From contig NZ_SOEY01000007.1 in assembly GCF_004402535.1 (NCBI RefSeq), forward strand, positions 62,001 through 126,000: 64,000 nucleotides of DNA, given 5' to 3'. Below the pieces are notes generated by a model. That model was not told the origin of the DNA. It searched no databases and worked only from the letters and a program-made list of their open reading frames with translations. Shown piece after piece: positions 16,397 through 48,429 of this stretch. Both the position numbers and the translations under genes were made by a program. The stretch's first letter is position 1. Each line of letters opens with the position of its first letter. This DNA is from Cryobacterium glaciale (GTDB taxonomy: Bacteria > Actinomycetota > Actinomycetes > Actinomycetales > Microbacteriaceae).

Positions 16397-17761
16397 CTAT
16401 TTCCACGCCCGATCGAGTTCGGCGTCACGCGGCGTGCGGGTGGTTCCGAGCGCGAGGGCAACCGCTGCGTGGATCGAGCCGCAGGCGGCGTCGATCTGGG
16501 TGGTGAACCCCAGCCGCACGGCCTCGTTCATGCGCTGCTTCGACATGAGCGCCCCACGCACCTCGCCGGCCAGGCTGATCTCACCGAACGCGACCACATT
16601 GTGTGCCACGGCGAGCCCGGTGAAGGCTGAAGCGATGGCCAGGGCAATGGCAAGATCGGCTGCCGGTTCGGTGAGACGGATACCGCCCACCGTCGACACG
16701 TAGACGTCTTTGGTGGAGAGTTTCATGCCCCCACGCTCCTGGAGCACCGCGAGCAGCATGGCCACGCGGGCGGCGTCGACGCCGCTCGTGACGCGGCGCG
16801 GGTTCGGTGCCTGGGTATCGGTGACGAGCGCTTGCACCTCGACCGGCATCGCCCGGCGACCCTCCAGGGCGACGGTCACGCAGGTGCCGTCGACCGGCTC
16901 GGTGGCGCGACTGAGGAACAGCCCGCTCGGGTCGGGCACCTCGGCGATGCCGTCACCGGTCATCTCGAAGCAGCCGACCTCGTCGGTGGGCCCGAACCGG
17001 TTCTTGAGCGCGCGAATGAACCGCAGCGACGTCTGCCGGTCGCCCTCGAACTGGCAGACCACGTCGACCAGGTGTTCGAGCACCCGCGGCCCGGCAATCG
17101 ATCCGTCTTTGGTAACGTGGCCGACCAGCAGCACCGGCAGGTTGCGATCTTTAGCCACGCGAATGAGAGTGGATGCCACCTCCCGTACCTGGCTGGGCAT
17201 GCCCGGCGAGCCGTCGGAGAGCGCACTCGACACGGTCTGCACCGAGTCGATGATGATGAGGTCGGGCTTGACCGCGTCGATCTGCCCGAGGATGACCCCG
17301 AGGTCGGTTTCGGCGGCGATGTACAGTTCGGGTTCGAGCGCGTTGGTGCGTTCGGCGCGCAGTCGCACTTGGCTAACCGACTCTTCGGCGCTGACATAGA
17401 GCACGCGGCTCTTCGCGGCCGCCGCCTTAGAGGCGACTTCGAGCAGCAGCGTGGACTTGCCGACGCCGGGCTCACCGCTGAGCAGAACTACCGAACCGGG
17501 CACGATGCCGCCGCCGAGCACCCGGTCGAACTCGTTGATGCCGGTCGGCCAGTGGGCGGCGGCATCCGTTTCAACGTGGGTGATGGGGCGCGCGATGCCA
17601 TCGCCGACGAGAGTGATGGCCTTGAGCTTGCGGGTGATGCCAGCGGTCTGGCCGGCATCGACGACGGTGCCCCACTGCTGGCATTCGCTGCAGCGGCCCG
17701 CCCATTTCAGGGTGGTCCAGCCGCACTCGGAGCAGCGGAAAGAGGAGACGGATTTTGCCAT
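16397..17761 (-). CDS. radA: DNA repair protein RadA
   Basis: A 454-residue RecA-like branch-migration helicase acting in homologous recombination. The N-terminal four-Cys zinc finger (CSECGWTTLKWAGRCSEC, residues 9-26) is followed by Walker A GEPGVGKST near residue 96, Walker B LIIIDSVQT and the RadA-specific KNRFG near residue 260. The C-terminal Lon-like domain (STKDVYVSTVGGIRLTEPAADLAIALAIASAF) is complete. Length is normal. It converges with the SseB-like gene and lies just downstream of the SGNH hydrolase gene on the same strand. Confidence 0.97.
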   Translation of the reverse strand: MAKSVSSFRCSECGWTTLKWAGRCSECQQWGTVVDAGQTAGITRKLKAITLVGDGIARPITHVETDAAAHWPTGINEFDRVLGGGIVPGSVVLLSGEPGVGKSTLLLEVASKAAAAKSRVLYVSAEESVSQVRLRAERTNALEPELYIAAETDLGVILGQIDAVKPDLIIIDSVQTVSSALSDGSPGMPSQVREVASTLIRVAKDRNLPVLLVGHVTKDGSIAGPRVLEHLVDVVCQFEGDRQTSLRFIRALKNRFGPTDEVGCFEMTGDGIAEVPDPSGLFLSRATEPVDGTCVTVALEGRRAMPVEVQALVTDTQAPNPRRVTSGVDAARVAMLLAVLQERGGMKLSTKDVYVSTVGGIRLTEPAADLAIALAIASAFTGLAVAHNVVAFGEISLAGEVRGALMSKQRMNEAVRLGFTTQIDAACGSIHAAVALALGTTRTPRDAELDRAWK

Positions 17762-17814: not shown

Positions 17815-18594
17815 CTAATCGGCGTCGGTTGAGATCTGGCCGACCGCCGAGAAACGGTGCGCAACCTCGGCACTCATCGCTGGCAGGAACGCCTCGGCCC
17901 AGGACCGGTACCCGCGGTCGTTGGGGTGGAACAGGTCCTTGGCGACGTGGGTGAGGATGCTCCGAATTCCTGCCCGTTTGGTCGTCGTGTGCAGCGGAAC
18001 CACGGTCAGATCGTGCTCGGCGGCGACCCGGCGAATGATTTCGTTAGCCACCGCCACCTTGACCTCGTTGTGCGGCAGGTGGAAGCACGGGAGGTCGGCG
18101 ACGAGGGCGTGTGGCGGCAGCACGGCGAACACGGAGCGAATGCCAGCTTCGAAGGCCGTCGGATTCCACGAGGCGATGTCGTTGGCGCCGATCGCGACCG
18201 TGACAAGGTCGGGCTCGAGCTTGTCGAAGCGCGGAAGCTGATCGCGAACGGCCAAAGCCACGGTTGCGCCGGACACGCTGAGATTCACGACGCGTACCGT
18301 CTGGCCGGTCGCCAAGCGCACGTGATCGGCGAGGACGCCGACGTAGCTCTTGTTCGGACTGGAAGCCCCGATCCCTTGGGCGGCGCTGTCGCCGATGGCG
18401 ACGTAGAGCAGCTCTCCCGGTTGTTTGGCGTGGGCGCGCCACCAAGCCGAGTGCACCGGCAGAGTCTCGTTGAGAATGGCCTTCTGCTCTTCCAGGTCGC
18501 GTCGGTACCAGGTCGTGCCCAGCGCGATGCAGGCCGCTACCAGGGCGGCTCCGGTAGCGATGGCGGAGCGGATGCGTGGGGTCGGTAAGGTCAC
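17815..18594 (-). CDS. SGNH/GDSL-family hydrolase, membrane-anchored
   Basis: A 259-residue protein with an N-terminal membrane helix (IRSAIATGAALVAACIALGTTW) and an SGNH hydrolase domain outside the membrane. The catalytic blocks are visible: block I GDSAAQGIGA near residue 68 (nucleophile Ser), block III VAIGANDIASWNP (GxND) and block V DLFHPNDRGYRSWAEAF (Asp and His). Such enzymes hydrolyse esters of lipids or cell-wall polymers; the substrate here is unknown. It is probably transcribed with radA, about 50 bases away. Confidence 0.85.
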   Translation of the reverse strand: MTLPTPRIRSAIATGAALVAACIALGTTWYRRDLEEQKAILNETLPVHSAWWRAHAKQPGELLYVAIGDSAAQGIGASSPNKSYVGVLADHVRLATGQTVRVVNLSVSGATVALAVRDQLPRFDKLEPDLVTVAIGANDIASWNPTAFEAGIRSVFAVLPPHALVADLPCFHLPHNEVKVAVANEIIRRVAAEHDLTVVPLHTTTKRAGIRSILTHVAKDLFHPNDRGYRSWAEAFLPAMSAEVAHRFSAVGQISTDAD

Positions 18595-18680
18595 CCGCTG
18601 AGGCTACTCCGCGGCATCCGTGTGTCTGCTGCACGTTTGCCGATTCGCGTCGGACCCCAGTCTCTACTAGGATCGACGGC

Positions 18681-18770
18681 GGTACCGTGTCCGAGCGGCC
18701 GAAGGTGCGACTCTCGAAAAGTCGTGTGGGGGAGACTCCACCGTGGGTTCAAATCCCACCGGTACCGCCA
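18681..18770 (+). tRNA. tRNA-Ser (anticodon CGA)
   Basis: A class II tRNA of 90 bases. The seven-base acceptor stem GGTACCG pairs with CGGTACC, the discriminator is G and CCA is encoded. The anticodon stem GACT/AGTC holds the loop CTCGAAA with anticodon CGA. A long variable arm (GTGGGGGAGACTCCAC) and the T-arm GTGGG-TTCAAAT-CCCAC follow. Its last 27 bases are repeated at 25,972-25,998, making it the left attachment site of an integrated element. Its present downstream sequence lacks the strong terminator found beyond the distal repeat. Confidence 0.97.
18744..18770 (+). repeat. attL: left attachment site (within tRNA-Ser 3' end)
   Basis: The 27 bases from the T-arm to the CCA end are identical to 25,972-25,998 in the same orientation. 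The match stops on both sides of the repeat, as expected for a tRNA-integrated element flanked by its core site. Confidence 0.85.
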
Positions 18771-18784
18771 TTTTTATCCCTGAT

Positions 18785-18806
18785 CAGAGGGACTTTAGTC
18801 CCTGTG
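18785..18806. repeat. small hairpin just inside the island's left end
   Basis: CAGAGGGACT and AGTCCCTGTG face each other around two bases, with nine of ten positions paired. It lies 15 bases beyond the tRNA CCA end, after a run of five T. It could act as a replacement terminator for the tRNA or be an arm site of the former recombinase. A scar-like TTTGCCCACA follows at about 18,817. Confidence 0.5.
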
Positions 18807-18936
18807 CAGTGGTGTTTGCCCACAATTGACCCACATCATGGTGATTGACGGTCAATCTTTTGACCAGGAAGATCCGATTCGGACTGGGCTTGGCCGTCGA
18901 TCTATGGATACTCCCTATTGAATTGACTATCGATTC

Positions 18937-19236
18937 TCAGGAAGTGCGTTCGTCTCGGAACGGTAGGAAAATCCGCGCTGGGCCCTGCATGCTCGCTATA
19001 GATGAGCGTTGTCGAAAGAGTAGTTCGGGGCGCGACGCCTCCGGCACCGGTGAATGAGCCGCACGGGGATCGGCGACGTTTCCGCCACGCTCAGCACGAT
19101 GGCCGGTGTCGTCGGTGGAGTCGTCGACGATGATGATCACGGCCTTTCGTCCCTCGACCGCCTGACCAATCCGACGGATCAGCCCAAGGACGTTGGCTGC
19201 TTCATTGAACGTTGGTACGACAACTGCGACCTCCAT
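18937..19236 (-). pseudogene. 5' fragment of a family 2 glycosyltransferase
   Basis: From the ATG at 19,236 the minus strand encodes MEVAVVVPTFNEAANVLGLI and then AVIIIVDDSTDDTGH, the start of a GT-A glycosyltransferase of the dolichol-phosphate mannose synthase type. After about 48 residues homology-like sequence ends and the frame runs on into low-complexity, unrelated residues to 18,937. The rest of the enzyme is absent, so this is a truncated remnant. A lipid-linked sugar transferase would have fitted the envelope theme of the island. Confidence 0.65.
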
Positions 19237-19319
19237 CGGGGCCTCGCCTGCTCGGCGGAATTCCACTCTCGTCCTGGCCCTATAGAAATCCGCTAAGACG
19301 GGCGAGCCCGGCAAACGAT

Positions 19320-19353
19320 TCTTAGACGGTTCTGTGACGTCACGGGCAACTCT
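19320..19353 (+). promoter_or_regulatory. predicted response-regulator operator/promoter of the PAP2 operon
   Basis: Two 11-bp units follow head to tail: TCTTAGACGGT (19,320-19,330) and TCTGTGACGTC (19,331-19,341). Six bases later AACTCT (19,348-19,353) is a weak -10 candidate that would start the transcript about at the ATG (19,360), implying a leaderless mRNA. The same two half-sites in reverse order precede the COG4705 gene. Direct repeats with 11-bp period are typical OmpR-family operators, and the OmpR-type regulator encoded next door is the likely binder. Confidence 0.55.
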
Positions 19354-19359
19354 AGGGGG

Positions 19360-20073
19360 ATGAGCACAGACCTCCGACCACTTCACCGGTTCGCCCGGAC
19401 CGCTCTTCCCGCCGCCGGAGTCATCCTCGCCGTCATTCTCATCGGGCTCATTCTGAGCGGTTCAGCAGGGTGGACGGCCGGAGAGATGGACCTGCTTCGC
19501 CTGGTGAACACGGCCCACACCGCGCCGCTGGACGCGGTGGTCCTCGGCCTGGACTGGCTGTTCAGCCCCGCCGTAGGCGCAGTGCTTGTCTTGTTGGCAG
19601 CCGGATCGGTGCTGCTGGTGACCCGGCGCCCCGGCCCGGCGATCCGCTTCGTGGTCTTGGTCATGATTCCCACGCTGGGCGCTGACGTGATTAAGCTGCT
19701 GGTGCATCGGGCCCGGCCCGACATTCCGTCGTTGCCGCACATCCTGCTGCTGGAACCGGGCGGTCTCAGCTTTCCCAGCGGACACACCAGCTTCGCCGCC
19801 TGCTTCCTGCTCGGGATTTTCCTCGTCACGGCCGGCCACCGCTGGCATCCGTTTGTGATCGGCACGACCACGGTGGTGGTGCTCGCCACCGCCGCGTCCC
19901 GGGTCTATTTGGGCGTGCACTACCCGTCGGATGTGGTGGCGTCGATCGTGTACTCGCTCTCCGCGGTGGCGCTGGTGAACGCCGCCTGGATGCTACTACT
20001 GGCACACTGGAGCGAACGTCGATCCGGCCGCCCCGCCGGGCCCGTGCACGAAGGAGTCACGAATGCCCGCTGA
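19360..20073 (+). CDS. PAP2-family phosphatase (undecaprenyl-diphosphatase-like)
   Basis: A 237-residue polytopic membrane phosphatase. The three PAP2 signature blocks are intact: KLLVHRARP near residue 111, the PSGHTSFAACF block near 140 and SRVYLGVHYPSDVV near 180. About six membrane helices are visible. Family members dephosphorylate lipid pyrophosphates such as undecaprenyl diphosphate or phosphatidyl phosphates; the exact substrate cannot be read here. The following response-regulator gene starts 11 bases before its stop. The ATG has AGGGGG directly in front with no spacing, which fits a leaderless transcript from the repeat-containing promoter better than normal initiation. Confidence 0.88.
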   Translation: MSTDLRPLHRFARTALPAAGVILAVILIGLILSGSAGWTAGEMDLLRLVNTAHTAPLDAVVLGLDWLFSPAVGAVLVLLAAGSVLLVTRRPGPAIRFVVLVMIPTLGADVIKLLVHRARPDIPSLPHILLLEPGGLSFPSGHTSFAACFLLGIFLVTAGHRWHPFVIGTTTVVVLATAASRVYLGVHYPSDVVASIVYSLSAVALVNAAWMLLLAHWSERRSGRPAGPVHEGVTNAR

Positions 20074-20737
20074 GAGCACCGCGCGCGCCCGGCTGCTGCT
20101 GATCGAAGACGATGCCAAGCTCGGCCCGATGATCCGGGACGTGCTCGCAGAAATCTATGACGTCACTCTGGTCGCCGACGGCGCGGACGGCCTGGCCGCC
20201 GGCCTCGCTGGCGAGTTCGAGGTGATGGTCATCGACCGGCGCCTGCCCACGCTGGACGGCCTCGGCCTCGTTGAAGCGCTCCGCCGTAAACTGGTCACCA
20301 CCCCCGTCCTGCTCCTCACCGCCTTGGGAACCACCGGCGACAAGGTGGCCGGGCTCGACATCGGCGCCAACGACTACCTGGTCAAGCCGTTCGAGTTTGC
20401 TGAGCTCTTCGCCCGGCTCCGGGCTATCCGTCGGGTTTTCACGGGGGAGGGCCGCACGGTGCTGGTGGGCGGGTGGGAGTATTACCCGGACAGTCGCACC
20501 ATCTATTCCCCGTATGACGGGCGGATCCTGCTGACGGTGAAAGAGAACGAATTGCTCAAACTGTTAGCGGATGCCCCGCAACGCACGTTCTCCCGTCAAC
20601 AGATTCTGCAGACCGTCTTCAGCGCCGCGGACACCGCTGGAACGGTGGACACCTACGTGCACTACCTTCGGCGCAAGACCGACACTGACATCGTTCTCAC
20701 CGTGCGCGGTGAGGGTTACCGCCTGGGACAACCATGA
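20063..20737 (+). CDS. OmpR-family response regulator (system 1)
   Basis: A 224-residue regulator. The receiver domain (residues 7-120) has the acidic pair IEDD, the phospho-acceptor in VMVIDRRLPTLDGLGL near residue 55, the Thr in LLLTALG and the Lys in NDYLVKPF. The C-terminal winged helix (about 130-224) contains RTIYSPYDGRILLTVKENELLKLLA and TVDTYVHYLRRKT. AAGGAG at 20,051-20,056 is its ribosome site. The ATG overlaps the PAP2 stop and its own stop overlaps the kinase start. It is the predicted binder of the TCTTAGAC/TCTGTGA repeats at 19,320 and 21,861. Confidence 0.92.
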   Translation: MPAESTARARLLLIEDDAKLGPMIRDVLAEIYDVTLVADGADGLAAGLAGEFEVMVIDRRLPTLDGLGLVEALRRKLVTTPVLLLTALGTTGDKVAGLDIGANDYLVKPFEFAELFARLRAIRRVFTGEGRTVLVGGWEYYPDSRTIYSPYDGRILLTVKENELLKLLADAPQRTFSRQQILQTVFSAADTAGTVDTYVHYLRRKTDTDIVLTVRGEGYRLGQP

Positions 20738-21741
20738 CCCGCAGCACAGACCGCATCGTTGACAGCGACACCCTCGCCATCCGTCGGGCGTCCCGGCTCG
20801 TCGGCGCCCGCATCGCGATCGCGTGCGCCGCGGTCGTCGCGGTGGTCATGGTGGCTGTGTTCGTCTACATCCTGTCCGAGATCTCGCCCGGTGAATTGTT
20901 CGAACCGGTGCCGGACACCGAGAACCTGCAGGTCAGCGCCGTCAAGCTGCTGCGCGCTGCCGCCGTGTTGGGCGTGGGCTTGATCGTTCTGGCCGGGGTG
21001 TTGAGCTGGCTGGTCACCCGCCGGGCTGTGCAACCCCTCGGCGACGTGCTGCGCATCCAACGGGCGTTCGTCGCCGACGCCAGCCATGAACTTCGCACCC
21101 CGCTCGCAGTGCTCGATGCCCGCCTGCAAATATTGCAACGCACCCTCCCCGCCGACGACCCGTCGGCCTCGGTCGTCGCAGAGCTCCGCAGCGATGCGAA
21201 GGACCTCATTCACATCGTCAACGATCTGCTCGAATCGGCCGAAATCGGCGGCGCGGCCGTACCCGACACGGCAATAGTAGACATGGTCACTGCCGTTGAC
21301 ACCGCCGTGCAATCGATGACACTTATTGCCGTCGACAAACACATCACCATCGAACTGGATGCCCCTCATCCCGCGCCGGTGCGCGTGCCCGCCACCAGCA
21401 TCACCCGATGCGTGGTCGCCCTGCTCGATAACGCGGTGCGCTTCGCCCCCAGCGAATCGATCATCACCGTGGGAGTGACCGTGACCAAAAAGACGGTGGC
21501 AGTCACCGTGCGCGATCGAGGCCCCGGCATCCAGGGCATCGACCCCGCCCGCATCTTCGACCGATTTGCACACTCCGGCACGGCCGTGGACGGCGGCGGA
21601 GAGGCCCGCACCGGATTCGGGATCGGCCTGTCCCTGGTGCGAGAAATCGCGGTCCGCTACGGCGGATCCGTGCACGTCGTCGACAGCTCGGCCGCGGGCA
21701 CCGCGATCGCCCTCACCCTCCCGTGGGCGAAGCACCACTGA
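20734..21741 (+). CDS. sensor histidine kinase (system 1)
   Basis: A 335-residue membrane kinase. Two helices near residues 27-48 and 72-95 enclose a short external loop of about 25 residues, a layout seen in intramembrane-type envelope sensors. The HisKA box is DASHELRTPLAVLDARLQIL near residue 118. The HATPase domain carries the N box (RCVVALLDNAVRFAP), G1 (VRDRGPGIQGID) and G2 (GFGIGLSLVREI). It overlaps the regulator gene by four bases. With little extracellular sequence it probably reads membrane or lipid-carrier state, possibly through a partner; this is inferred from the topology. Confidence 0.9.
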   Translation: MTRSTDRIVDSDTLAIRRASRLVGARIAIACAAVVAVVMVAVFVYILSEISPGELFEPVPDTENLQVSAVKLLRAAAVLGVGLIVLAGVLSWLVTRRAVQPLGDVLRIQRAFVADASHELRTPLAVLDARLQILQRTLPADDPSASVVAELRSDAKDLIHIVNDLLESAEIGGAAVPDTAIVDMVTAVDTAVQSMTLIAVDKHITIELDAPHPAPVRVPATSITRCVVALLDNAVRFAPSESIITVGVTVTKKTVAVTVRDRGPGIQGIDPARIFDRFAHSGTAVDGGGEARTGFGIGLSLVREIAVRYGGSVHVVDSSAAGTAIALTLPWAKHH

Positions 21742-21742
21742 T

Positions 21743-21764
21743 TCCTAGGTGTTTCTGAGACTCG
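21743..21764 (+). promoter_or_regulatory. weaker 11-bp direct repeat after system 1
   Basis: TCCTAGGTGTT and TCTGAGACTCG form another head-to-tail 11-bp pair with resemblance to the operator at 21,861. It lies directly after the kinase stop and about 180 bases before the next gene. It may be an auxiliary site or chance. Confidence 0.3.
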
Positions 21765-21860
21765 GGGCGGTGAAGTTAGCCCATGTCGACCTCACTGCAC
21801 GCGCGCAAAATGACGTGCAGCAATGGGTCCACGTCGTCGATCCAGCGGAAATAGGTCGGT

Positions 21861-21894
21861 TCTGTGAGAAGTCTTAGACGGGGCCGTGTTCGCT
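21861..21894 (+). promoter_or_regulatory. predicted system-1 operator/promoter of the COG4705-dedA genes
   Basis: TCTGTGAGAAG (21,861-21,871) and TCTTAGACGGG (21,872-21,882) repeat with an 11-bp period. They are the same half-sites as at 19,320 but in swapped order. Six bases later TTCGCT (21,889-21,894) occupies the -10 position, giving the same spacing as the PAP2 promoter. The AGGAGG ribosome site lies about 20 bases downstream of it. Confidence 0.55.
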
Positions 21895-21925
21895 GGTGCT
21901 ACCGACCCCATCCCAGGAGGAACAC

Positions 21926-22729
21926 TTGTCCACCACCTCGACGCTCTCCACGACCGTTTTGCCCGTCCGGCACATCCTGACCAAGGTGCCCGAAGTGACC
22001 CTCATCTTCTGGGTGATCAAGGTTCTCGCAACGACCGTGGGGGAGACCGCCGCGGACTTTCTCAACGTCGACCTCGGCCTAGGACTGACGATCACGTCGG
22101 TCATCATGGCCGTCCTCCTGGGCGTCGCACTGATCGTGCAATTCAAGCTGCACAAGTACACTCCTGCCGTCTATTGGCTGGCTGTGGTACTCATCAGCGT
22201 CGTGGGAACTCTCATCACCGACAATCTAACCGACAGCCTCGGAGTGCCCCTGTGGGTGACGACGGTCGTCTTCGCCATCGCACTGGCTGCGACCTTCACC
22301 GTCTGGGCGATCTCGGAGAAGACCCTCTCCATCCATTCCATCTTCACGGCCCGGCGGGAGACGTTCTACTGGCTGGCCGTGTTGTTCACCTTCGCGCTCG
22401 GCACCGCCGCCGGCGACCTCGTCGCCGAGGGACTCAACCTCGGGTTCCTCGTCGCGCTGCTCGTCTTCACGGGCGCGATCGCGCTGGTGGCCGTGGCGTA
22501 CCTCGTCTTCCACCTGAACGCTGTTCTCGCATTCTGGATCGCCTACATCCTGACCCGACCGCTGGGCGCATCCACCGGCGATCTGCTGTCTCAGCCTGTC
22601 GTTGATGGCGGCCTGGGGCTGGGGACCACGGGAACGAGTGTGCTGTTCCTTTCCGTGATTCTCATCTTGGTAGTCGTGCTCACCCGCCGCGCCCGAACCA
22701 CGAACGCCCAGCTGACGGCCACCGTCTAA
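21926..22729 (+). CDS. COG4705-type repeat-containing membrane protein
   Basis: A 267-residue, almost entirely hydrophobic protein with about eight helices, of the uncharacterised COG4705 membrane family. Four internal repeats each hold a Gly-x3-Asp motif before a helix break: TTVGETAADFLN, VGTLITDNLTDSLG, LGTAAGDLVAEGLN and LGASTGDLLSQPV. The repeated buried Asp residues suggest an ion or metal path, which is inference. The strong AGGAGG at 21,915-21,920 selects the TTG at 21,926 as start. It is followed by dedA at 60 bases, probably on one transcript, behind a predicted system-1 operator. Confidence 0.75.
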   Translation: MSTTSTLSTTVLPVRHILTKVPEVTLIFWVIKVLATTVGETAADFLNVDLGLGLTITSVIMAVLLGVALIVQFKLHKYTPAVYWLAVVLISVVGTLITDNLTDSLGVPLWVTTVVFAIALAATFTVWAISEKTLSIHSIFTARRETFYWLAVLFTFALGTAAGDLVAEGLNLGFLVALLVFTGAIALVAVAYLVFHLNAVLAFWIAYILTRPLGASTGDLLSQPVVDGGLGLGTTGTSVLFLSVILILVVVLTRRARTTNAQLTATV

Positions 22730-22789
22730 ACCACCAGCGCACAGCGGATGCCGCCCATCTTCAGAATATTCAGAGAAAGCCCTTGCAGC

Positions 22790-23452
22790 ATGAACACCAT
22801 GATCGCCACCGCACTACCCACGTCCGGTTTTCTGGATCCGCAATCCGTGATCGCCGGCGCCGGCGTCTGGGGTCTCGTCGTCGTGTGCGCGATCGTGTTC
22901 GTGGAGACGGGCTTGCTCGTAGGGTTCTTCCTGCCCGGCGATACCCTGTTGTTCTTCACCGGCGTGCTCACCCTCAGCGGGGTGATCAGCCAGCCGCTCT
23001 GGATCGTGATTCCGGCCATCGCCGTCTCGGCCGCGCTCGGTGACCAGCTCGGCTACCTCATCGGGCGCACAACCGGTCGACGTATTTTCGACCGGCGCGA
23101 CTCCGGCCTGTTCAGCCGCTCGAGCGTCGCCCGAACGCAGAGATTCTTTGATCGGTTCGGGCCGGCGGCCGTCACCATCGCCCGCTTCGTGCCGGTCGTG
23201 CGCACCTTTGCTCCCGTCGCGGCCGGCGTGGGCAAGATGCCCCGGAGGGTGTTCACTCTGTTCAACATTGTCGGCGCGGTGCTCTGGACGACCGCGGTGG
23301 TGCTCCTGGGCTTCGGTCTAGCTCATATTCCGGGCGTCTCCGACTTCGCCGCCCGATACATCGATCTTGTGCTGATCGGCATCGTCGTGCTCTCCGTCGT
23401 TCCCGTCGTCATCAGGGCCCTCGCCTCACGCCGGCAGAATGCTCGGGCGTGA
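22790..23452 (+). CDS. DedA-family membrane protein
   Basis: A 220-residue polytopic protein of the DedA (SNARE-associated/VTT) family. Family marks are the first loop IVFVETGLLVGFFLPGDTLLFF with conserved Glu and Asp, the GDQLGYLIGR motif and RFVPVVRTFAPVAAGVGKM with essential-type Arg residues. Some DedA proteins translocate undecaprenyl phosphate across the membrane; others affect peptide-antibiotic resistance. Together with the PAP2 enzyme on the same island this suggests lipid-carrier recycling. The ATG at 22,790 is preferred because the family-like sequence starts there; an in-frame ATG at 22,748 would add 14 residues. Confidence 0.87.
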   Translation: MNTMIATALPTSGFLDPQSVIAGAGVWGLVVVCAIVFVETGLLVGFFLPGDTLLFFTGVLTLSGVISQPLWIVIPAIAVSAALGDQLGYLIGRTTGRRIFDRRDSGLFSRSSVARTQRFFDRFGPAAVTIARFVPVVRTFAPVAAGVGKMPRRVFTLFNIVGAVLWTTAVVLLGFGLAHIPGVSDFAARYIDLVLIGIVVLSVVPVVIRALASRRQNARA

Positions 23453-23496
23453 CCATCAGCGGAACGCCGCAGCGAATGGCGCGAGAGCTCGGGGCG

Positions 23497-23530
23497 TCTC
23501 ATCCTGGTCTCATCGGCCACGGTCTAGGGT
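23497..23530 (+). promoter_or_regulatory. predicted system-2 operator/promoter (autoregulation)
   Basis: TCTCATCCTGG (23,497-23,507) and TCTCATCGGCC (23,508-23,518) are 11-bp direct repeats sharing TCTCATC. Six bases later TAGGGT (23,525-23,530) is a good -10. The same layout recurs at 25,239, upstream of the exported-protein gene. The site precedes the system-2 regulator gene by about 60 bases. Confidence 0.6.
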
Positions 23531-23590
23531 CGAGGCTATGACCATCACCCGCTGCCCGCTACGTCGCAAATCGGGCGGGACGGGCGGCGG

Positions 23591-24271
23591 GTGAAGGTGC
23601 TCGTGGTCGAGGATGACATCCGCATCGCGGATGTCATCCGGCGCACCCTCACCGAATCCGGCTACGCCGTCGACGTCGCCCATACCGCGCCCGCCGGCGT
23701 GCAAGCTTTCGAAATCGACACCTATGATCTGGTCGTTCTGGATCTGATGCTCCCGGGGCTGCCGGGTGGAGGGATGGACGTGTGCCGACGCATCCGCTTA
23801 TTCAATAGCAACGTGCCCGTGCTGATGCTGACCGCACTGGATTCGATGCGCACCAAGGTGGAGGGCCTCGACGCCGGCGCCGACGACTACCTTGTCAAAC
23901 CGTTCCACCTGGTGGAGCTGCTGGCCCGGGTACGTGCTCTCCTTCGACGATCACCGCGCGCTCACGCACCCGTCCTGCAGGCCCAGGGCGTCACCCTCGA
24001 CCCGGCGACCCGCACCGCCCAGCGCGCGGGACGCACGATCCAGCTGACGGGCAAGGAATTCGCTGTGCTGGAATACCTCATGAGCAACGCCGGCACCATC
24101 ATCAGCGCCACCGAGCTGATTGATCATGCCTGGGACAGTAACTATGAGGGGTTTAGCAACGTCGTACAGACCTACATCCGCTACCTCCGGCAGAAGTTGA
24201 CCGCACCCGGTGAGGTGGACATTATCGAAACGCGGCGCGGTGCCGGTTATCTGATCCACGCGGACAGCTGA
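23591..24271 (+). CDS. OmpR-family response regulator (system 2)
   Basis: A 226-residue regulator starting with GTG. The receiver domain has VVEDDIRIADVIRR, the phospho-acceptor in YDLVVLDLMLPG near residue 51, LMLTALD and DYLVKPFHLVELLARV. The winged-helix DNA-binding domain covers about residues 130-226 (GKEFAVLEYLMSNAGTIISATELI, then NVVQTYIRYLRQKL). The start codon is supported by a GC-rich GGCGG just upstream, which is a weak ribosome site. Codons 7-16 form a perfect 13-bp inverted repeat in the mRNA. The kinase gene overlaps its stop by one base. Confidence 0.92.
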   Translation: MKVLVVEDDIRIADVIRRTLTESGYAVDVAHTAPAGVQAFEIDTYDLVVLDLMLPGLPGGGMDVCRRIRLFNSNVPVLMLTALDSMRTKVEGLDAGADDYLVKPFHLVELLARVRALLRRSPRAHAPVLQAQGVTLDPATRTAQRAGRTIQLTGKEFAVLEYLMSNAGTIISATELIDHAWDSNYEGFSNVVQTYIRYLRQKLTAPGEVDIIETRRGAGYLIHADS

Positions 24272-25218
24272 TGTTTCGCCGCGCGCTGGTTCGACTCACC
24301 GTGACCTACACGATCGTGCAACTGGTGCTGTTCGCCGCGTTCGCGGTGGGAATCTACATTTTCGTCACCGGAACTTTCGACATCGATGCCGCCGAATCGG
24401 ACGGTGCCGGCGCGCTGAACGCGGCCGAGCAGGGCTTCGCCAACCTCCGCTCCGGACTGATCGTGCTCTACGCCATCTTGTTGGTGCTGATCCCGAGCGC
24501 GAGTTTTCTCATGGCCCGCGCCGCCCTGGCGCCGCTGCAGAAAAGCTACGACCTGCAGCAACGCTTCGTCGATGGCGCCTCCCACGAGATGCGCAGCCCG
24601 CTGAGCATCATCCAGGGTGAGCTCGAACTCGCCCTCCTCACCCCCCGCACCCCGGCCGAGTACGAGCGGGCAATGCACACAGCCCTCGACGCCGTCGGCG
24701 GACTCACCCAACTCACCAACGACCTCCTCCTGTTATCCCGCGGCGCAGGAGCCGAACTGAAGAGAACCTACGAACTCGTCGACCTGAACGAACTTGTCCG
24801 TCTCGATATGGACGCGCGCGGCAGCAGCCCAGACGATGCCGCCCGCCTACACGTAAACATGGGGCAAGCCACTGTTGTTTTGGGCTCTCCAGTCCTGCTC
24901 GCTCGAGCGCTCTCGAACCTCATCGACAACGCGCTGAAATTCAGCGCGCCGCCGAGCATCGTCACCGTGAGCACGGACATCCACAACAGCACGTGCACCG
25001 TCACCGTTCGCGACTCCGGCATGGGCATGGACGACCACGACCTGAAGCATGCTTTCGACCGGTTCTGGCGCTCCGACCAAGCACGATCGCGGCCCGGGCA
25101 CGGCATCGGTCTCAGCCTGGTGCAGCAGATCATCCACGCGCACGATGGCCGCATCACGATCACCTCGCAGATCGGGGTCGGCACGACCGTCACGGTGAAG
25201 CTTCCACTCCGCCCCTAA
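24271..25218 (+). CDS. sensor histidine kinase (system 2)
   Basis: A 315-residue kinase with two membrane helices (about residues 7-35 and 65-85) around a loop of about 30 residues rich in Asp, Ala and Gly. The phosphorylated His lies in DGASHEMRSPLSIIQGELEL near residue 109. The HATPase domain shows ALSNLIDNALKFSAPPS, VRDSGMGMDDHD and GHGIGLSLVQQIIHAH. The start codon overlaps the regulator's TGA by one base. Downstream an operator-like repeat and a small acidic exported protein follow, which is the likely output or sensor partner of this system. Confidence 0.9.
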   Translation: MFRRALVRLTVTYTIVQLVLFAAFAVGIYIFVTGTFDIDAAESDGAGALNAAEQGFANLRSGLIVLYAILLVLIPSASFLMARAALAPLQKSYDLQQRFVDGASHEMRSPLSIIQGELELALLTPRTPAEYERAMHTALDAVGGLTQLTNDLLLLSRGAGAELKRTYELVDLNELVRLDMDARGSSPDDAARLHVNMGQATVVLGSPVLLARALSNLIDNALKFSAPPSIVTVSTDIHNSTCTVTVRDSGMGMDDHDLKHAFDRFWRSDQARSRPGHGIGLSLVQQIIHAHDGRITITSQIGVGTTVTVKLPLRP

Positions 25219-25238
25219 ATTGGCTGAGTAGCTCTGGC

Positions 25239-25272
25239 TCTCATGCTCATCTCACGCGACCCTCTCTAGCTT
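25239..25272 (+). promoter_or_regulatory. predicted system-2 operator/promoter of the exported acidic protein
   Basis: TCTCATGCTCA (25,239-25,249) and TCTCACGCGAC (25,250-25,260) repeat with an 11-bp period. After six bases comes TAGCTT (25,267-25,272) as -10. The half-site TCTCA(T/C) and the spacing equal those at 23,497, so both promoters are probably bound by the same regulator. Confidence 0.6.
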
Positions 25273-25319
25273 GGAAGTACGGCCCCGCAATCGCGGAGCC
25301 CCCTTACGAAAGGCACACC

Positions 25320-25634
25320 ATGCAGAAGAAGATGAAAATCGCCGGCGGCGCAGCAGCTGCCCTGGCTCTGGCCATCGTCGGCGGCATCACGCTTACCGCC
25401 GGAGCCCAGGCCACTCCCGCCAGCCCCTCGTCGTCCGCCTCGACCGTTGAGCCCGGGGCAGCCACGGCCGACACCGACAACGTGCAAAACGAGGTCGAAG
25501 ACGGCACCAAGGACGGCGAAACCGCCGACGACAACGGCACCGAGTCAGGCACCGAGTCCGGTACCGAAACAGGCACCGAGAACACGAGTGACGACATCAA
25601 CGGTGTCGCCGTCGAAGACGGCACACAGGACTAA
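25320..25634 (+). CDS. small acidic exported protein
   Basis: A 104-residue protein with a clear signal peptide (MQKKMKIAGGAAAALALAIV, cleavage near AQA at residue 30). The mature part is almost free of hydrophobic and basic residues and rich in Asp, Glu, Thr and Gly, with the repeated tetrad GTES/GTET near residues 72-90. It is probably unfolded and may bind cations or cationic peptides outside the membrane; this is inference from composition. AAAGG at 25,308-25,313 is the ribosome site. It stands behind a predicted system-2 promoter and before a strong terminator. Confidence 0.8.
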   Translation: MQKKMKIAGGAAAALALAIVGGITLTAGAQATPASPSSSASTVEPGAATADTDNVQNEVEDGTKDGETADDNGTESGTESGTETGTENTSDDINGVAVEDGTQD

Positions 25635-25644
25635 CCCGGCGCAG

Positions 25645-25676
25645 GAAGACCGGGGCGCACGTGCGCCCCGGTCTTC
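25645..25676 (+). terminator. perfect palindromic terminator
   Basis: GAAGACCGGGGCGCAC followed by its exact reverse complement gives a 32-base perfect palindrome, then GTTGTCTT. It starts 11 bases after the stop of the acidic protein gene and ends the island's last transcript. Confidence 0.85.
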
Positions 25677-25971
25677 GTTGTCTTACCGACGGACTCAGCG
25701 AGGCGTGCGTCGTGCTCTACCGCGGGTCGAGGTCGCAACGAAAACGGTTTACCCGGCGGCGGCAAGCGCGGCCTACGCCGATCTAGAGGGGCACCCAACC
25801 AGTCCGGGTCGTCCGGACACACGATTTATCGACACTAGTTTTCGAGGCCGTGCCCACATTCTGCCCACACTTCAAAAAATTCGAGGTGATTGTTGAAGCC
25901 CGATGGTGACCGAAAACCGTTGAATTTACGGGGCAGCGGGCCTTCCGCCAGGCTGTGACTGGGCGGGACTT
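25677..25971. other. non-coding right end of the island
   Basis: About 295 bases with no convincing gene. It contains TTCTGCCCACACTTCAAA near 25,857. Read on the minus strand this encodes VWAECGH, like the tails of tyrosine recombinases, and may be what is left of an integrase 3' end. The sequence next to the right repeat matches nothing recognisable. Confidence 0.5.
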
Positions 25972-25998
25972 TGGGTTCAAATCCCACCGGTACCGCCA
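25972..25998 (+). repeat. attR: right attachment site: duplicate of the tRNA-Ser 3' end
   Basis: Identical over 27 bases to 18,744-18,770, including the T-loop TTCAAAT and the encoded CCA, but with no 5' tRNA part before it. The junction with the chromosome lies directly to its right. Confidence 0.85.
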
Positions 25999-26051
25999 CG
26001 AAAAACCCCCTACATCCCAGTGTTTCACTGGGGAGCAGGGGGTTTCGTTTT
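25999..26051 (+). terminator. displaced terminator of tRNA-Ser
   Basis: Outer arms CGAAAAACCCCCT and AGGGGGTTTCG enclose a perfect inner hairpin CCCAGTG-TTT-CACTGGG and end in TTTT. It begins one base after the tRNA 3'-end duplicate, where a tRNA terminator should stand, and is now 7.2 kb from the functional tRNA because of the island. Confidence 0.8.
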
Positions 26052-26299
26052 GCCCGGATGGCCGTTTTGCCCACACGTCAAAGATTCTGGACATGGAAAA
26101 CACGCACCTCGAACGGGAGCACACATCTGGTGTCGCTCGGCGTGTACCCGGACCAGGCCAGCGGCTTCGCCGCCCTCACCCGGTTCATTCCCCTGCTTCT
26201 CGGCGACAGTGATGATGACCCACAGCTCGCAGATATCCTCGGAAACACACCGTCGGTCAGAGCGTTCCGACGGCAGAGTGCTCACGGAGGACAGCGACC
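26052..26299. other. gap with recombination-scar sequence, no gene seen
   Basis: TTTTGCCCACACGTCAAA at about 26,066 shares its first 14 bases with a sequence at about 47,953. No reading frame here has convincing protein character. Confidence 0.5.
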
Positions 26300-27004
26300 C
26301 TAGCCGGACTTCGTGAACGGAGCACAGCGCGATGTTTTGATGAGGCCGTCCGAGGCTTGTACCGTTATCACGGCCGGACCCGAGCTGAGCTCATTGTCGA
26401 TGATGTCGTCGCCGGTGGCGTTCAGACGCGCCCAGTAACAGTTCGATCCGCCGTCCGAGGAATACGTACCCGGCTGGATATCCGTGCCAACCCGAAATGT
26501 TCCGTCGCCGGCGAACGTGTTGGCGGCGACGACATCTTCGGCACCCTTGATTGCGCCCTCGCGCGTGTCCAAGGCCGATGAGCGAGCGGTCAATTCGGCG
26601 TCACGAACGCTGAGTGCGGCCTCCGCGCCCGCAAGGTTTTCCTCGCGCACCTCCGCAGCACCAACTTTCGACCGCAGCCCGCTGATCGTATCGTTTTGCT
26701 TGCCCCAGTCGGTTCGGAGTGAGTCGTAGTTGTCACTCTTCGAGGTGAACTCTGCTTGAAGGTCATTGGTTGCGCCGACTTGGCCCGCGAGTAAAACACC
26801 CAGCGTTGCGATTGCGATTGCTGCGACAGCCCCTGTGGCGACCAGGGCGAGGAAAGGGGTGCGCTTGGTGCGGAGGTCGGGAATCCGCTTTAACTTAGGG
26901 AGCCAACGGGTGAAAGGGTCGAACCTCTTTGATTTCGCACGTGGCGGTGTGGGAATCGCTTCGTTGCTGTCGTTGCTGTCGTTGCTGTCGTTGCTGTCGT
27001 TCAT
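26300..27004 (-). CDS. membrane-anchored coiled-coil protein with exported C-terminal domain
   Basis: A 234-residue protein that begins with four Asn-Asp-Ser repeats encoded by a 9-bp tandem repeat. A basic stretch and one membrane helix near residues 49-72 follow, then a predicted coiled coil (about 80-160, TSKSDNYDSLRTDWGKQND to ALDTREGAIKGAEDVV) and a C-terminal domain with two Cys (GTFRVGTDIQPGTYSSDGG, NCYWARL, TSRCAPF). That end domain is common in exported actinobacterial proteins of unknown role. Start is supported by GGGGG before the ATG. Confidence 0.75.
   Translation of the reverse strand: MNDSNDSNDSNDSNEAIPTPPRAKSKRFDPFTRWLPKLKRIPDLRTKRTPFLALVATGAVAAIAIATLGVLLAGQVGATNDLQAEFTSKSDNYDSLRTDWGKQNDTISGLRSKVGAAEVREENLAGAEAALSVRDAELTARSSALDTREGAIKGAEDVVAANTFAGDGTFRVGTDIQPGTYSSDGGSNCYWARLNATGDDIIDNELSSGPAVITVQASDGLIKTSRCAPFTKSG
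26961..26996. repeat. 9-bp tandem repeat inside the coiled-coil protein gene
   Basis: Four exact copies of TCGTTGCTG followed by a partial fifth. On the coding strand they encode Asn-Asp-Ser repeats at the extreme N-terminus. Copy-number changes stay in frame and would only lengthen or shorten the cytoplasmic tail. Confidence 0.9.
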
Positions 27005-27094
27005 GGTGGTTCCCCCTGTGTCGATTTACGCTACTGCGTGGTGGCGGGGGCCGGACTGCTCTCGCCCGGCTTCCGCCACCCCATTTCGGGCAGA

Positions 27095-28945: not shown

Positions 28946-30967
28946 ATGACGATCACCGACACCAGCCTGCTGATGACCATGTCCGACATCGCTGCCCTCG
29001 CCCACGTGCAGCGCCCGGTCGTCTCGGTTTGGCGCAGCCGCGCGGCCGGCACCGATGCGCCGTTTCCGGCCCCGATCAGCCGCCAGCGCGGCGTCGACCT
29101 CTTCGACGCCGGCCAGGTCGGCGGCTGGCTCGAACGCACCGGCCGCGGCAACAACCGCGAGGCCACAGCGGATGCCGCCGCCTACGCCGTCTCCGCCCGC
29201 CACGACTTCGACGAAGTCGCGTTCCGCGGCGTCACGGCACTGCTCGCCCTCCGCGAGGCGGGTGACCACGCGCTCGGCGGGCTGACCGCGGCCGAGTTGC
29301 TCGACGCCGCCGACGAGCACGACCCCGACGATGACCTGCTCTTTCGCGAGGTCGACGCTCTCGGCACCCGCCTGGTGGCCCTGGCCGAGTACGTCGACGC
29401 CCTCGTTGAGGCCGCTTACGGCCCAGCGCCCGCCTTCGAACGGATGCTCACCGACCGCGCAAAGCGCAACTTCGCCGACGAGGGCGACCTCACTCTCAGC
29501 CGCGCAGCCATCGACCTGATGACCCACACCGTTACGGCGCTGCGCTTCACCCAGCACGCCGACTCTGTAGTCGTCGATCCGACGGGTAGTGCGGGCGACC
29601 TCCTGGTGGCGATTCACGAGGCGCACCCCCGCGATCTGCCGGTGCTGACCGCGAATGACGACGATCCGGCCGCCCGGCTGCAACGGCGTCGCCTGATGGT
29701 GCACGGCATCGTGCGCACCGGGGTGCCGGTTCAGCCCTCGGGTGCCTTCACCGTGGACGGTTCCGCCGTACACATCGCGCAATACCCGTCCGCCGCCCAA
29801 CCGACCATGACCCCGGTCGAGATGCTGTCGGCCATCGACGACATCGTCTTACAGCTCACCGACCAGCAACTCGCCGTGGTGTTGGCCCCGGCCACCGTGC
29901 TCACCGACATCGGGCTCAGCCCCGAAGCCGATCAACTGCGCTCCTCGCTGTTGCGCTCGGGCCGGGTGCGTGCCATCGTGCGCCTGCCCGCTGGAATGCT
30001 CAGCGGCAAACCCCAGCAGCTGCAGGCCATCTGGGTGCTCGGCGCCGCCCACACCCAGCACGCCCTCGCCGACCGCTACGCGATGGTGGCCGATCTCGTG
30101 GCCACACCGCTCGACACCGCGGTGATCGACGACCTTGTGAGCGACCTCGTCGCCTCCCTCGGCGACCGCAGCACCGTGCGAGCGCACTCCTTTCGCTTCG
30201 CCCGGCTCGCGCTCACCCGCACCCTGCTCGCGAGCCGTCAACCTCTGATCGCCGGAGTTGACACGGTGGCCGTCGCACCCGAGCAGTCGGCGGCGGCGCT
30301 TGCCATCGACATCGACAGGCTGGTCACGGCCCTCCATAGCGACCTCACCGTGTTCCCCGCGACCCCAGATCAAAGCTCCAACACGATGACCGTGCACGAG
30401 CTCCTCACCGCCGGGCACCTGCGATACATTCCCGGCAACCGAATCGCCGCCGAGGATGTGATCGTCGGAAAAGTGGACGGCATCCGCTTGATCGGCCCGG
30501 CTGAAGTCGCGAACCCCACAGAGCTCGGCCACCGTAGCATCGACCGCCTGAGGTTCGCCGCGGGGTATCCGTCCGGGCGGGTGACGGAGCCTGGAGACGT
30601 CGTGTTCTGTACCTCTCCGAAGCCAGCCGCCCTGGTCGATACCGAGGGAACTTCGGTCGTGCTGTTTCCGGCCCGAATTCTACGCATCGACCGCGCAGAC
30701 CCGAACGGCCTGCTCGCCGAGGTGCTCGCCGCCGACATTGCCGCGCTGCCCCCGGGCCATCGCCGTTGGCGGGCGTGGAAAGCACGCCAGGTGGCCCTAA
30801 CCCAACGCGCCGCGCTCGCCGATGCCCTCACCTCGCTACGGTGGGAACAGAAGCAGACGCGCGACCGGCTGGGGCAGCTCGACGAGCTCACCGATTTGCT
30901 CATGACCGGCATCACCGCCGGCACCATCACCCTTGCTTCTAACGCACCATCGAAAGGAACCACCTAG
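28946..30967 (+). CDS. catalytically dead HsdM-like protein with HsdS-like C-terminus
   Basis: A 673-residue protein opening the type I restriction operon. The N-terminus (MSDIAALAHVQRPVVSVWRSR) looks like a helix-turn-helix. The middle follows the HsdM fold: VVDPTGSAGDLLVAIHEAH near residue 211 replaces motif I DPCCGSGG, and where the neighbouring HsdM has the catalytic NPPF, near residue 278, this protein has AQYPSA. From about residue 479 the sequence (TVHELLTAGHLRYIPGNRI, EPGDVVFCTSPKPAALVD, then a helix with WEQKQTRDRLGQLDELTDLL) resembles half an HsdS. It is probably a DNA-binding or regulatory subunit rather than an enzyme. The ATG at 28,946 follows GAGGAGC; the stop overlaps the hsdM GTG. 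Confidence 0.8.
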   Translation: MTITDTSLLMTMSDIAALAHVQRPVVSVWRSRAAGTDAPFPAPISRQRGVDLFDAGQVGGWLERTGRGNNREATADAAAYAVSARHDFDEVAFRGVTALLALREAGDHALGGLTAAELLDAADEHDPDDDLLFREVDALGTRLVALAEYVDALVEAAYGPAPAFERMLTDRAKRNFADEGDLTLSRAAIDLMTHTVTALRFTQHADSVVVDPTGSAGDLLVAIHEAHPRDLPVLTANDDDPAARLQRRRLMVHGIVRTGVPVQPSGAFTVDGSAVHIAQYPSAAQPTMTPVEMLSAIDDIVLQLTDQQLAVVLAPATVLTDIGLSPEADQLRSSLLRSGRVRAIVRLPAGMLSGKPQQLQAIWVLGAAHTQHALADRYAMVADLVATPLDTAVIDDLVSDLVASLGDRSTVRAHSFRFARLALTRTLLASRQPLIAGVDTVAVAPEQSAAALAIDIDRLVTALHSDLTVFPATPDQSSNTMTVHELLTAGHLRYIPGNRIAAEDVIVGKVDGIRLIGPAEVANPTELGHRSIDRLRFAAGYPSGRVTEPGDVVFCTSPKPAALVDTEGTSVVLFPARILRIDRADPNGLLAEVLAADIAALPPGHRRWRAWKARQVALTQRAALADALTSLRWEQKQTRDRLGQLDELTDLLMTGITAGTITLASNAPSKGTT

Positions 30968-32583: not shown

Positions 32584-33800
32584 CTGACTGGGAGCAGACG
32601 ACGCTGGGTGAGGTTGTTCTTGAGGGAGGGGGTTCTTTCAAGACGGGCCCATTCGGCACGACGCTCAAAGCGAGCGAGTATTCCTCTCATGGCGTGCCGG
32701 TCATATCCGTTGGTGAGGTCGCCTACGGATCCTTGGTTCTACGACGCGATACCCCGCGAGTCTCCTCTGAAGTTACGACGAGGCTTGCGGAGTACGTCCT
32801 AAGAAAGGGCGACATAGTCTTTGGACGCAAGGGCGCAGTGGACCGCAGCGCTTGGGTTCAACCCAACCAAGAGGGCTGGTTCCTCGGTTCCGATGGAATT
32901 CGAGCTCGACTTGCGTCGTCTGTAGATTCAAAATTCGTGGCCTATCAACTCCAAGGCCCCCACATTCGTGAGTGGCTCCTGCAGCATGCTTCCGGTTCCA
33001 CACTCCTGTCGCTGAATCAAACAACGCTGTCGCGGGTGCCCCTTCTGGTGCCGCCCCTTCGTGACCAGCAAGCGGTCGCCGAGGTCTTGGGCTCGCTCGA
33101 CGAGAAGATCGCCGCCAACACTAGGATCGCCGCGACATCCGCCGGGCTCTCCAGAGCGCTGTTCGAAGATGCGCTTCAGAAAGGATCAGTTGAATCGTTG
33201 CTTTCAGACGTCACGACCCTGGTTTCAAGAGGTGTAACGCCTGCGTATTCTGAGGACGCCGTTGGTACAACGATGATCCTGAATCAGAAGTGCGTGCGTG
33301 GTCAAAGAGTTTCACTTGCTCCCTCGCGCCGCACCAATGACTCCAAAGTCCGAGATGACAAGATCCTCTTGGTCAATGATGTTTTGGTGAATTCGACCGG
33401 CCAAGGAACTTTGGGGCGGGTTGCCCGTTGGACCCGCGACGACCGAGCGACGACCGATTCACACATCTCGATTGTGCGGTTTAATGCAACCCAGACGAAC
33501 CCAGTTGCCGCCGGTTATGGCCTCCTGAGGATGCAACAATCAATCGAAGAACTCGGAGAGGGCAGCACCGGGCAGACAGAATTGTCGCGAGTCGACCTCG
33601 GCAATCTTCGTGTGCTGTTGCCTGCTCGTGAGCATCAGGACAAGCTTGGCGCGCGGTTGTCGGAACTCTCGCAGTCCGAGGATGCGCATCTAGCCGAAAA
33701 CGAGACCCTCGCCGCCACGCGCGACGCCCTGCTCCCGCAGCTCATGTCGGGCAAGCTGCGCGTCAAAAACGCCGAGAAGTCGCTCGCGGGCGTGCTGTGA
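32580..33800 (+). CDS. hsdS: type I restriction-modification system, specificity subunit
   Basis: A 406-residue specificity subunit with two target-recognition domains, each followed by a helical conserved region. The first starts TTLGEVVLEGGGSFKTGPFGTTLKASEY and ends DQQAVAEVLGSLDEKIAANTRI near residue 180. The second ends with HQDKLGARLSELSQSEDAHLAENETLAATRDALLPQLMSGKL. The recognition domains look less GC-rich than the flanking genes, as is usual for exchanged HsdS modules. It overlaps hsdM by four bases. Confidence 0.93.
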   Translation: MTDWEQTTLGEVVLEGGGSFKTGPFGTTLKASEYSSHGVPVISVGEVAYGSLVLRRDTPRVSSEVTTRLAEYVLRKGDIVFGRKGAVDRSAWVQPNQEGWFLGSDGIRARLASSVDSKFVAYQLQGPHIREWLLQHASGSTLLSLNQTTLSRVPLLVPPLRDQQAVAEVLGSLDEKIAANTRIAATSAGLSRALFEDALQKGSVESLLSDVTTLVSRGVTPAYSEDAVGTTMILNQKCVRGQRVSLAPSRRTNDSKVRDDKILLVNDVLVNSTGQGTLGRVARWTRDDRATTDSHISIVRFNATQTNPVAAGYGLLRMQQSIEELGEGSTGQTELSRVDLGNLRVLLPAREHQDKLGARLSELSQSEDAHLAENETLAATRDALLPQLMSGKLRVKNAEKSLAGVL

Positions 33801-35214: not shown

Positions 35215-35371
35215 ACAAACCACTAAAAATGACCACCCGACTGGCCTGTGTCTTGTGGGAACGCAGCCGGTCATAGTCAGAGTTTGATCTCTGGTCAGAA
35301 TAAGCGACGGAGCTTGGAGTTGTTTCGTTAAGATCAGATGATGCGCCATGCGCAAGAAAGTTGGGGGGATC

Positions 35372-36349: not shown

Positions 36350-36382
36350 CAAATCAGCGTCGCCGCAGTTGAGGGGTAGGCA

Positions 36383-48418: not shown

Positions 48419-48429
48419 GCCACTCCCTC

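Follow-up and report, generated by a model that had tools for sequence, protein, structure and literature searches.

What separates the serine tRNA gene tRNA-Ser(CGA) of Cryobacterium glaciale from the terminator-like hairpin that directly follows this gene in relatives? The gene is the only tRNA detected by ARAGORN in the 64,000-nucleotide stretch of contig NZ_SOEY01000007.1 that was analysed (the window, to which all coordinates refer), and the hairpin now lies 7.2 kb downstream of it. An earlier note on the window had read the intervening block as an island that split the tRNA from its own terminator and then lost its integrase. By comparing the locus with those of other Cryobacterium genomes, we arrived at the view that positions 18771-25998 are, in all likelihood, a 7228-bp island inserted by site-specific recombination within the 27-bp 3′ end of the tRNA gene, located in a hotspot, devoid of an integrase and similar to a cis-mobilizable element (CIME).

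Results

A putative island between two copies of the tRNA 3′ end

The last 27 nt of tRNA-Ser(CGA) recur exactly at a spacing of 7228 nt (Table 1), as the earlier note had reported, and the locus thus has the flanks expected of a tRNA-associated island, with a tRNA gene on one side and its 3′ end directly repeated on the other. The best match to the 27-mer in 200 mononucleotide shuffles of positions 18771-58770 was 13 nt, and a chance repeat was therefore rejected. We then searched the genome with a related 24-mer, allowing three mismatches, so that any further exact copy of the core would have matched. Only the two core copies and tRNA-Ser(GCT) were found, which places the core at two sites in the genome. 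tRNA-Ser(TGA) and tRNA-Ser(GCT) have only part of the core in common with it.

The hairpin abuts the distal core copy and is strong, with a predicted energy of -29.4 kcal/mol over 58 nt from position 25999 (RNAfold). Downstream of the proximal copy the sequence reads TTTTTATCCCTGATCAGAGG..., and a terminator scan of 18600-26200 found none after this copy, a weak negative as the scan also missed the hairpin at 25999.

The tRNA is joined to the hairpin in relatives

If the block had been inserted, an empty site should show the hairpin directly after the tRNA. We compared the 52 nt located 3′ of the tRNA with the hairpin of the window and with the left end of the island in 39 congeners whose locus was at hand, out of 56 met in the locus searches. 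The predicted junction was present in 18 of the 39, in which a hairpin closely similar to that of the window (identity of about 0.85 or more) is joined directly to the tRNA and the island is absent from that place. The 52 nt of 15 more congeners match the hairpin at 0.63-0.83, and those of another five have low identity to it (0.02-0.54) yet also fold (-15.0 to -29.3 kcal/mol). An island-type end follows the tRNA in a single congener, C. luteum (G014; identity 0.79). The tRNA-proximal homology to relatives extends through the hairpin, reaching farthest, to 26067-26082, in G078, G036, G009, G016 and G068, with 97% identity over 77 nt in G036. Together with the finding of the island's genes elsewhere in relatives (see below), these junctions support both the insertion and the orientation proposed for it.

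Both ends recur around unrelated cargo

The first 20 nt of the left end are identical in the window and in genomes G014, G017 and G018; conservation extends over about 80 nt in all four, and the window and G017 agree beyond that. The exact 20-mer, with 0 mismatches, occurs in four of 57 genomes of the genus, own genome included. Near matches with two to three mismatches in six genomes are in different contexts that lack a tRNA-Ser core, and they were dropped because a reversed control pattern also gave two matches in the 57 genomes. No left end was found outside the genus: among 299 genomes of the family, with at least five other genomes of the genus among those listed, the only match was the window's own. 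A search of genome contigs for the exact pattern, which possibly omits the window's own record, returned C. flavum and C. luteum, one record each, and a search of viral contigs returned none.

At the right end, about 150 nt are conserved as a block, running from a GCCCACA repeat pair (GTGCCCACATTCTGCCCACA, 25850-25869) into the core, with unrelated sequence upstream. By BLAST it is present, whole or in part, in 17 of the 57 genomes including the window's own, with 88% identity over 135 nt in G074 and 71% in G035. The left end also contains a repeat pair, GCCCACA ... ACCCACA within 18815-18835, which departs from the paired pattern at two positions.

Two other islands, one of 2787 bp in G014 and one of 5001 bp in G017, have the same two ends but unrelated cargo. 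The former encodes a 368-amino-acid protein that matched no family and another that is PIN-like by a Pfam match under the cut-off, and the latter a protein that we take to be of the GGDEF/EAL type, as well as a resolvase fragment. In whole-genome Pfam searches, neither island had a match to the tyrosine integrase profile PF00589 inside it. The left end occurs a fourth time in G018, where no right end was found, nor any integrase in the approximately 11 kb between the left end and the backbone. We considered whether the islands bring a replacement terminator; in G014 and G017 a short hairpin precedes a T-rich run at corresponding positions, but the window and G018 do not clearly have one, and we make no such claim.

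Allowing at most one mismatch, the repeat pair was found at three sites in the genome of C. glaciale, against none for a reversed control. These are the right end of the island, positions 47956-47975, and a perfect copy beside an integrase at tRNA-Ser(GCT). Parts of the right-end repeat region are also found close to PF00589 matches, at distances of 46-185 bp, in G014 (contig C54), G018 (C18 and C29) and G063 (C32, whose match is below the cut-off), which supports the idea that the repeat pairs may be integrase arm sites.

The site at 47956-47975 (TTGCCCGCATTTTGCCCACA) adjoins the boundary of a block common to G013 and G017 (48023 onward) and is probably the decayed end of another element. Downstream of the hairpin, the segment at 26052-26085 contains one GCCCACA motif (26065-26076) and resembles the post-hairpin sequence of the integrase-bearing loci L089 and L148. 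In several congeners the right-end module also stands, by eye, before what seem to be other tRNAs' 3′ ends (L165, L167, L169, L175, L176 and L178), as if one end module served several targets; ARAGORN detected a whole tRNA at one of 19 scanned loci with this module, and at none of these six.

No integrase in the island, but tyrosine integrases at the same tRNA in congeners

No integrase was found in the island of the window by Pfam analysis of its nine open reading frames (ORFs), by an integrase hidden Markov model (HMM) or by a whole-genome search with PF00589. A loose tblastn search of the 7.2 kb for a remnant gave a single match at E ≤ 1, of chance level (21 residues, E 0.30), and the idea of a hidden integrase was dropped after these searches. 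Pfam likewise revealed no relaxase or conjugation domain among the nine ORFs, a search that did not extend to oriT. Thus, the island does not carry the integrase of its own expected of an integrative and conjugative element (ICE) or an integrative and mobilizable element (IME), and like a CIME it is without integration and transfer genes. The absence asserted by the earlier note is borne out, whereas a loss after insertion stays conjectural, both same-ended islands being without an integrase as well.

We surveyed 40 regions, which were chosen partly for second core copies and hence do not yield a rate. In twelve of them the core occurs more than once, which defines 13 core-to-core segments, six with a tyrosine integrase and seven, including that of the window, without. 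The six other integrase-less segments (G014, G017, G027, G063, G067 and G068) had no PF00589 match in searches of the whole genomes, and weak tblastn matches in G017 (E 0.005, 101 residues) and G068 (E 0.009, 31 residues) were not counted as integrases. The segment of G063 presumably carries arsenic-type and phosphate-transport-like genes.

Tyrosine integrases adjoin tRNA-Ser(CGA) in other congeners (e.g., L089, 5456-6571), indicating that the site is used by enzymes of that class. The order in G074 and G035 is tRNA-Ser(CGA), hairpin, GCCCACA pair and integrase; the right-end matches of these two genomes lie on contigs other than those of their integrase loci. In the genome of C. glaciale itself, tRNA-Ser(GCT) is followed by a hairpin, the perfect repeat TTGCCCACATTTTGCCCACA and an open reading frame for a 344-amino-acid tyrosine integrase (L085, 6254-7514; G000, C24). 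This integrase is 57% identical to that of G074 at tRNA-Ser(CGA), and the cores of the two tRNAs have 18 nt in common and differ thereafter. A search of the genome for another copy of the tRNA-Ser(GCT) 3′ end found none. Downstream of tRNA-Ser(TGA) lies a further integrase-like ORF (L085, 4870-6153).

The cargo occurs elsewhere in the genus

The cargo comprises two response regulator-histidine kinase pairs and several membrane or envelope proteins (Table 1). From their domains, it is probably involved in recycling of envelope lipid carriers or in envelope stress under the control of two two-component systems. The match of the first ORF to PF00535 (E 6e-05) covers profile positions 2-46 of 168.

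Table 1. Features of the island and its borders (window coordinates)
Feature	Position	Strand	Basis
tRNA-Ser(CGA), intact, integration target	18681..18770	+	ARAGORN
Proximal core, attL side; the tRNA's final 27 nt with the encoded CCA	18744..18770	+	Exact direct repeat
Conserved left end of the island	18771..18905	+	Alignments, pattern searches, motif
149-aa ORF, N-terminal part of a family 2 glycosyltransferase (fragment)	18937..19386	-	Pfam PF00535
PAP2 phosphatase, weakly undecaprenyl-diphosphatase-like	19360..20073	+	Pfam PF01569; NCBIfam far below cut-off
OmpR-type response regulator 1	20063..20737	+	Pfam
Histidine kinase 1	20734..21741	+	Pfam
DUF347 membrane protein, four repeats	21896..22729	+	Pfam PF03988
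DedA/VTT-domain membrane protein	22748..23452	+	Pfam PF09335; NCBIfam DedA/UptA models below cut-off
OmpR-type response regulator 2	23591..24271	+	Pfam
Histidine kinase 2	24271..25218	+	Pfam
Small acidic protein, signal-like N-terminus by eye	25320..25634	+	No family match
T-tailed terminator-like hairpin closing the cargo cluster	25645..25676	+	14 pairs
Conserved right-end module	25849..25971	+	BLAST, repeat-pair search, alignment
Distal core, attR side; exact copy of the tRNA 3′ end	25972..25998	+	Exact direct repeat
Terminator-like hairpin, directly after tRNA-Ser(CGA) in relatives	25999..26050	+	Comparison with relatives' loci
Probable remnant left end of a second element	26052..26085	+	Similar to the post-hairpin sequence of L089 and L056

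Congeners have matches to the block 19319-25673 at many other genomic places, at 81% along nearly its whole length in G077 and at 87% in two nearly abutting pieces in G035. We inspected ten such contexts. Their neighbours differ, and none of the ten has a core copy or an island end; in one of them (G078), the cargo lies in the same hotspot, with the tRNA on one side and the backbone on the other, but the core is not repeated. Within the 13 core-to-core segments, cargo genes were detected in the window's own only (tblastn, E ≤ 1e-5), the sole match in another segment being that of a response regulator, at 33%, in G063. The situation that would have spoken against the earlier note, relatives with the same genes between tRNA and hairpin, was thus not encountered among these segments.

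We also compared the similarity of the cargo to the window with that of the upstream gene at 16397-17761, which we take to be radA, in six congeners; G078, whose locus misses the response regulator-histidine kinase pair, and G036 and G018, whose loci start late, were left out. In G072 the pair is closer to the window than radA (87.2 versus 81.6% DNA identity), which suggests horizontal movement of the cargo there.

tRNA-Ser(CGA) is an accretion hotspot

The island is one part of a longer variable stretch that runs from 18771 to approximately 51559-52184, where islands are stacked one after another, making tRNA-Ser(CGA) an accretion hotspot. Upstream, the genes at 16397-17761 and 17815-18594, the latter presumably lipase-like, are common with relatives. 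The point at which DNA in common with relatives starts again varies from one relative to another, from 51559 to 52184, and the downstream backbone starts with a gene for 72 amino acids at 52195 and continues with those beyond. The block 48023-50146, common to G013 and G017, is an exception inside the variable stretch. The same interval in G013 spans about 5.5 kb.

Other features were observed in this hotspot. Positions 30967-39595 form a defence island with type I restriction-modification genes for a methylase (30967), a specificity subunit (32580) and HsdR (36383), between which lie genes for a PDC-S02/YhcG nuclease (34099) and a PDC-S08/5′-nucleotidase-like protein (35348). No PADLOC or NCBIfam model matched the gene at 28811. 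A Fic-domain protein (50276-51469; Pfam Fic, PADLOC SoFic model) is encoded just before the backbone resumes, and about five tandem 9-bp units coding for NDS repeats (26961-27005) are found at the start of the ORF at 26300-27004 on the minus strand.

Discussion

We propose that the island integrated within the 27-bp core of the tRNA-Ser(CGA) 3′ end, that recombination would have rebuilt the tRNA with the island's own copy of that end, and that the downstream hairpin would thereby have been pushed 7.2 kb away. Such an integration accounts for the repeat and for the tRNA being intact, as well as for the orientation and the displacement of the hairpin. The agent was probably a tyrosine integrase of the kind present at tRNA-Ser(CGA) elsewhere, one type of which, that of G074, comes with this repeat pair downstream of its hairpin, and it was either once resident and lost or supplied in trans. 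As the island has no integrase but has kept both ends with their repeat pairs, we regard it as CIME-like. With identical core copies and arm-like repeats at both ends, attL and attR appear to be retained and may be able to recombine; the island would then be movable only by an integrase from elsewhere or by a neighbouring element. Its right end is common with genomes that have integrase-bearing elements at tRNA-Ser(CGA), whereas no integrase was found with its left end (see below), so that the signs of ICE or IME ancestry are mixed.

Several observations weigh against this reading. Among the relatives' loci there was no strict empty site in which the tRNA adjoins the distal flank seen in the window, because the sequence beyond the hairpin (from about 26082) is itself variable in this hotspot. 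An integrase-bearing element with this left end was not found in any of the 57 genomes of the genus, so that the agent is deduced indirectly, and two mismatches must be accepted for the left end to match the paired repeat pattern. Composition is uninformative (GC content 0.640 in the island and 0.655 upstream), and present-day mobility is predicted from the sequence. The cargo of five of the six congeners has a somewhat lower similarity to the window than their radA. With this mixed outcome, the case for movement rests more on the varied neighbourhoods of the cargo.

Could the locus be an old, vertically inherited one, in which the repeat arose by chance or as a by-product of recombination? 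G078, with the same cargo between tRNA and backbone and no second core copy, and the five congeners whose cargo is no closer than radA, which do not demand transfer, would fit. However, the shuffles exclude chance, the ends are shared with islands of different cargo and the cargo has differing neighbourhoods in the nine other contexts, and we hold this explanation to be very improbable in spite of G078. Another question is whether the hairpin was the tRNA's original terminator or the end of an older, decayed element. For the latter, other genomes too have hairpins after distal core copies, 26052-26085 is similar to the post-hairpin sequence of the integrase-bearing L089 and L148, and everything down to about 51.5 kb belongs to the accessory genome. 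In contrast, a hairpin can be folded from the 52 nt after the tRNA in all 38 congeners except G014, whether an element is evident there or not. Sequence cannot separate the two cases, and in either the hairpin adjoined the tRNA before the island arrived. That the displaced hairpin is the tRNA's own terminator, as the earlier note said, is probable rather than certain, similar hairpins following the distal cores of other islands and the adjacent segment being remnant-like; an origin in an older element is somewhat the less probable of the two, but 'own' may be too strong.

As to the missing integrase, we give an even chance to the island having arrived with its own and lost it by deletion, the same-ended islands having lost theirs independently. 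Decay is the accepted origin of CIMEs in the account of PMC5704250, integrases are present in six of the 13 segments at the same site, and the right end resembles sequences in genomes with the arrangement tRNA-Ser(CGA)-hairpin-GCCCACA pair-integrase, albeit on other contigs. Against it, no remnant was detected in the 7.2 kb beyond the chance-level match, the fragment at 18937-19386 belongs to a glycosyltransferase, and no integrase was found in either of the two other two-ended islands or in the approximately 11 kb at the G018 left end. The islands with this left end might instead be a family that has no integrase of its own and is moved in trans through GCCCACA-type arm sites. Two other same-ended islands with unrelated cargo and no integrase, the repeat pairs at both ends and the integrase at tRNA-Ser(GCT) of the same genome, with its perfect repeat and 18 nt of shared core, point in this direction, as do the integrases beside such repeats elsewhere in G014 and G018 (none was seen in G017). 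Only three bounded members are known, however, from their sequences alone; the tRNA-Ser(GCT) integrase is just 57% identical to that of G074, with cores that differ after 18 nt; and homologous recombination between conserved ends could swap cargo too. We consider this family rather unlikely, yet far from negligible. Slightly more doubtful still is its strongest form, in which TTTTTATCCCTGATCAGAGG-left-end islands would be non-autonomous tRNA-Ser cassettes that never have an integrase, retain arm-type sites at both ends and bear interchangeable cargo, and GCCCACA-type integrases from unrelated elements would move them in trans. Such a family would correspond, among tyrosine-integrase systems, to integron cassette arrays that lack the enzyme.

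There are precedents for islands at RNA gene ends, for tandem accretion and for CIMEs, as described in PMC5704250, PMC3146451 and PMC11389934. CIMEs are presented as decay products of ICEs or IMEs (Pavlovic et al. 2004, cited in PMC5704250), and the island resembles them, as portrayed there, in its location at the 3′ end of a target gene, its retained attL and attR sequences, its lack of integration and transfer genes and its accretion site. It differs in that three same-ended islands carry unrelated cargo and no recognizable parent remains. The ssrA islands of Dehalococcoides, as described in PMC3146451, are similar in their tandem arrangement, bounds made of RNA-gene 3′-end copies, conserved repeat-adjacent sequence and varied cargo; sixteen of them carry a serine recombinase module, whereas the neighbours here carry tyrosine integrases and the island of the window none. 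The missing enzyme also recalls clusters of attC sites lacking integrases (CALIN), mobilized in trans by complete integrons according to PMC11389934, and miniature inverted-repeat transposable elements (MITEs). Those belong to other recombination systems, while a tRNA 3′ end and integrase-arm-like repeats are involved here, so that the likeness is one of analogy rather than relationship.

Among the open-access papers searched, nothing was found on the tRNA-Ser site of Cryobacterium. The locus shows one tRNA gene gathering successive islands in a cold-adapted actinobacterial genus, and the same-ended islands with different genes provide a small set for testing mobilization in trans. If that reading is true, small gene sets could spread without an enzyme of their own, as integron cassettes do.

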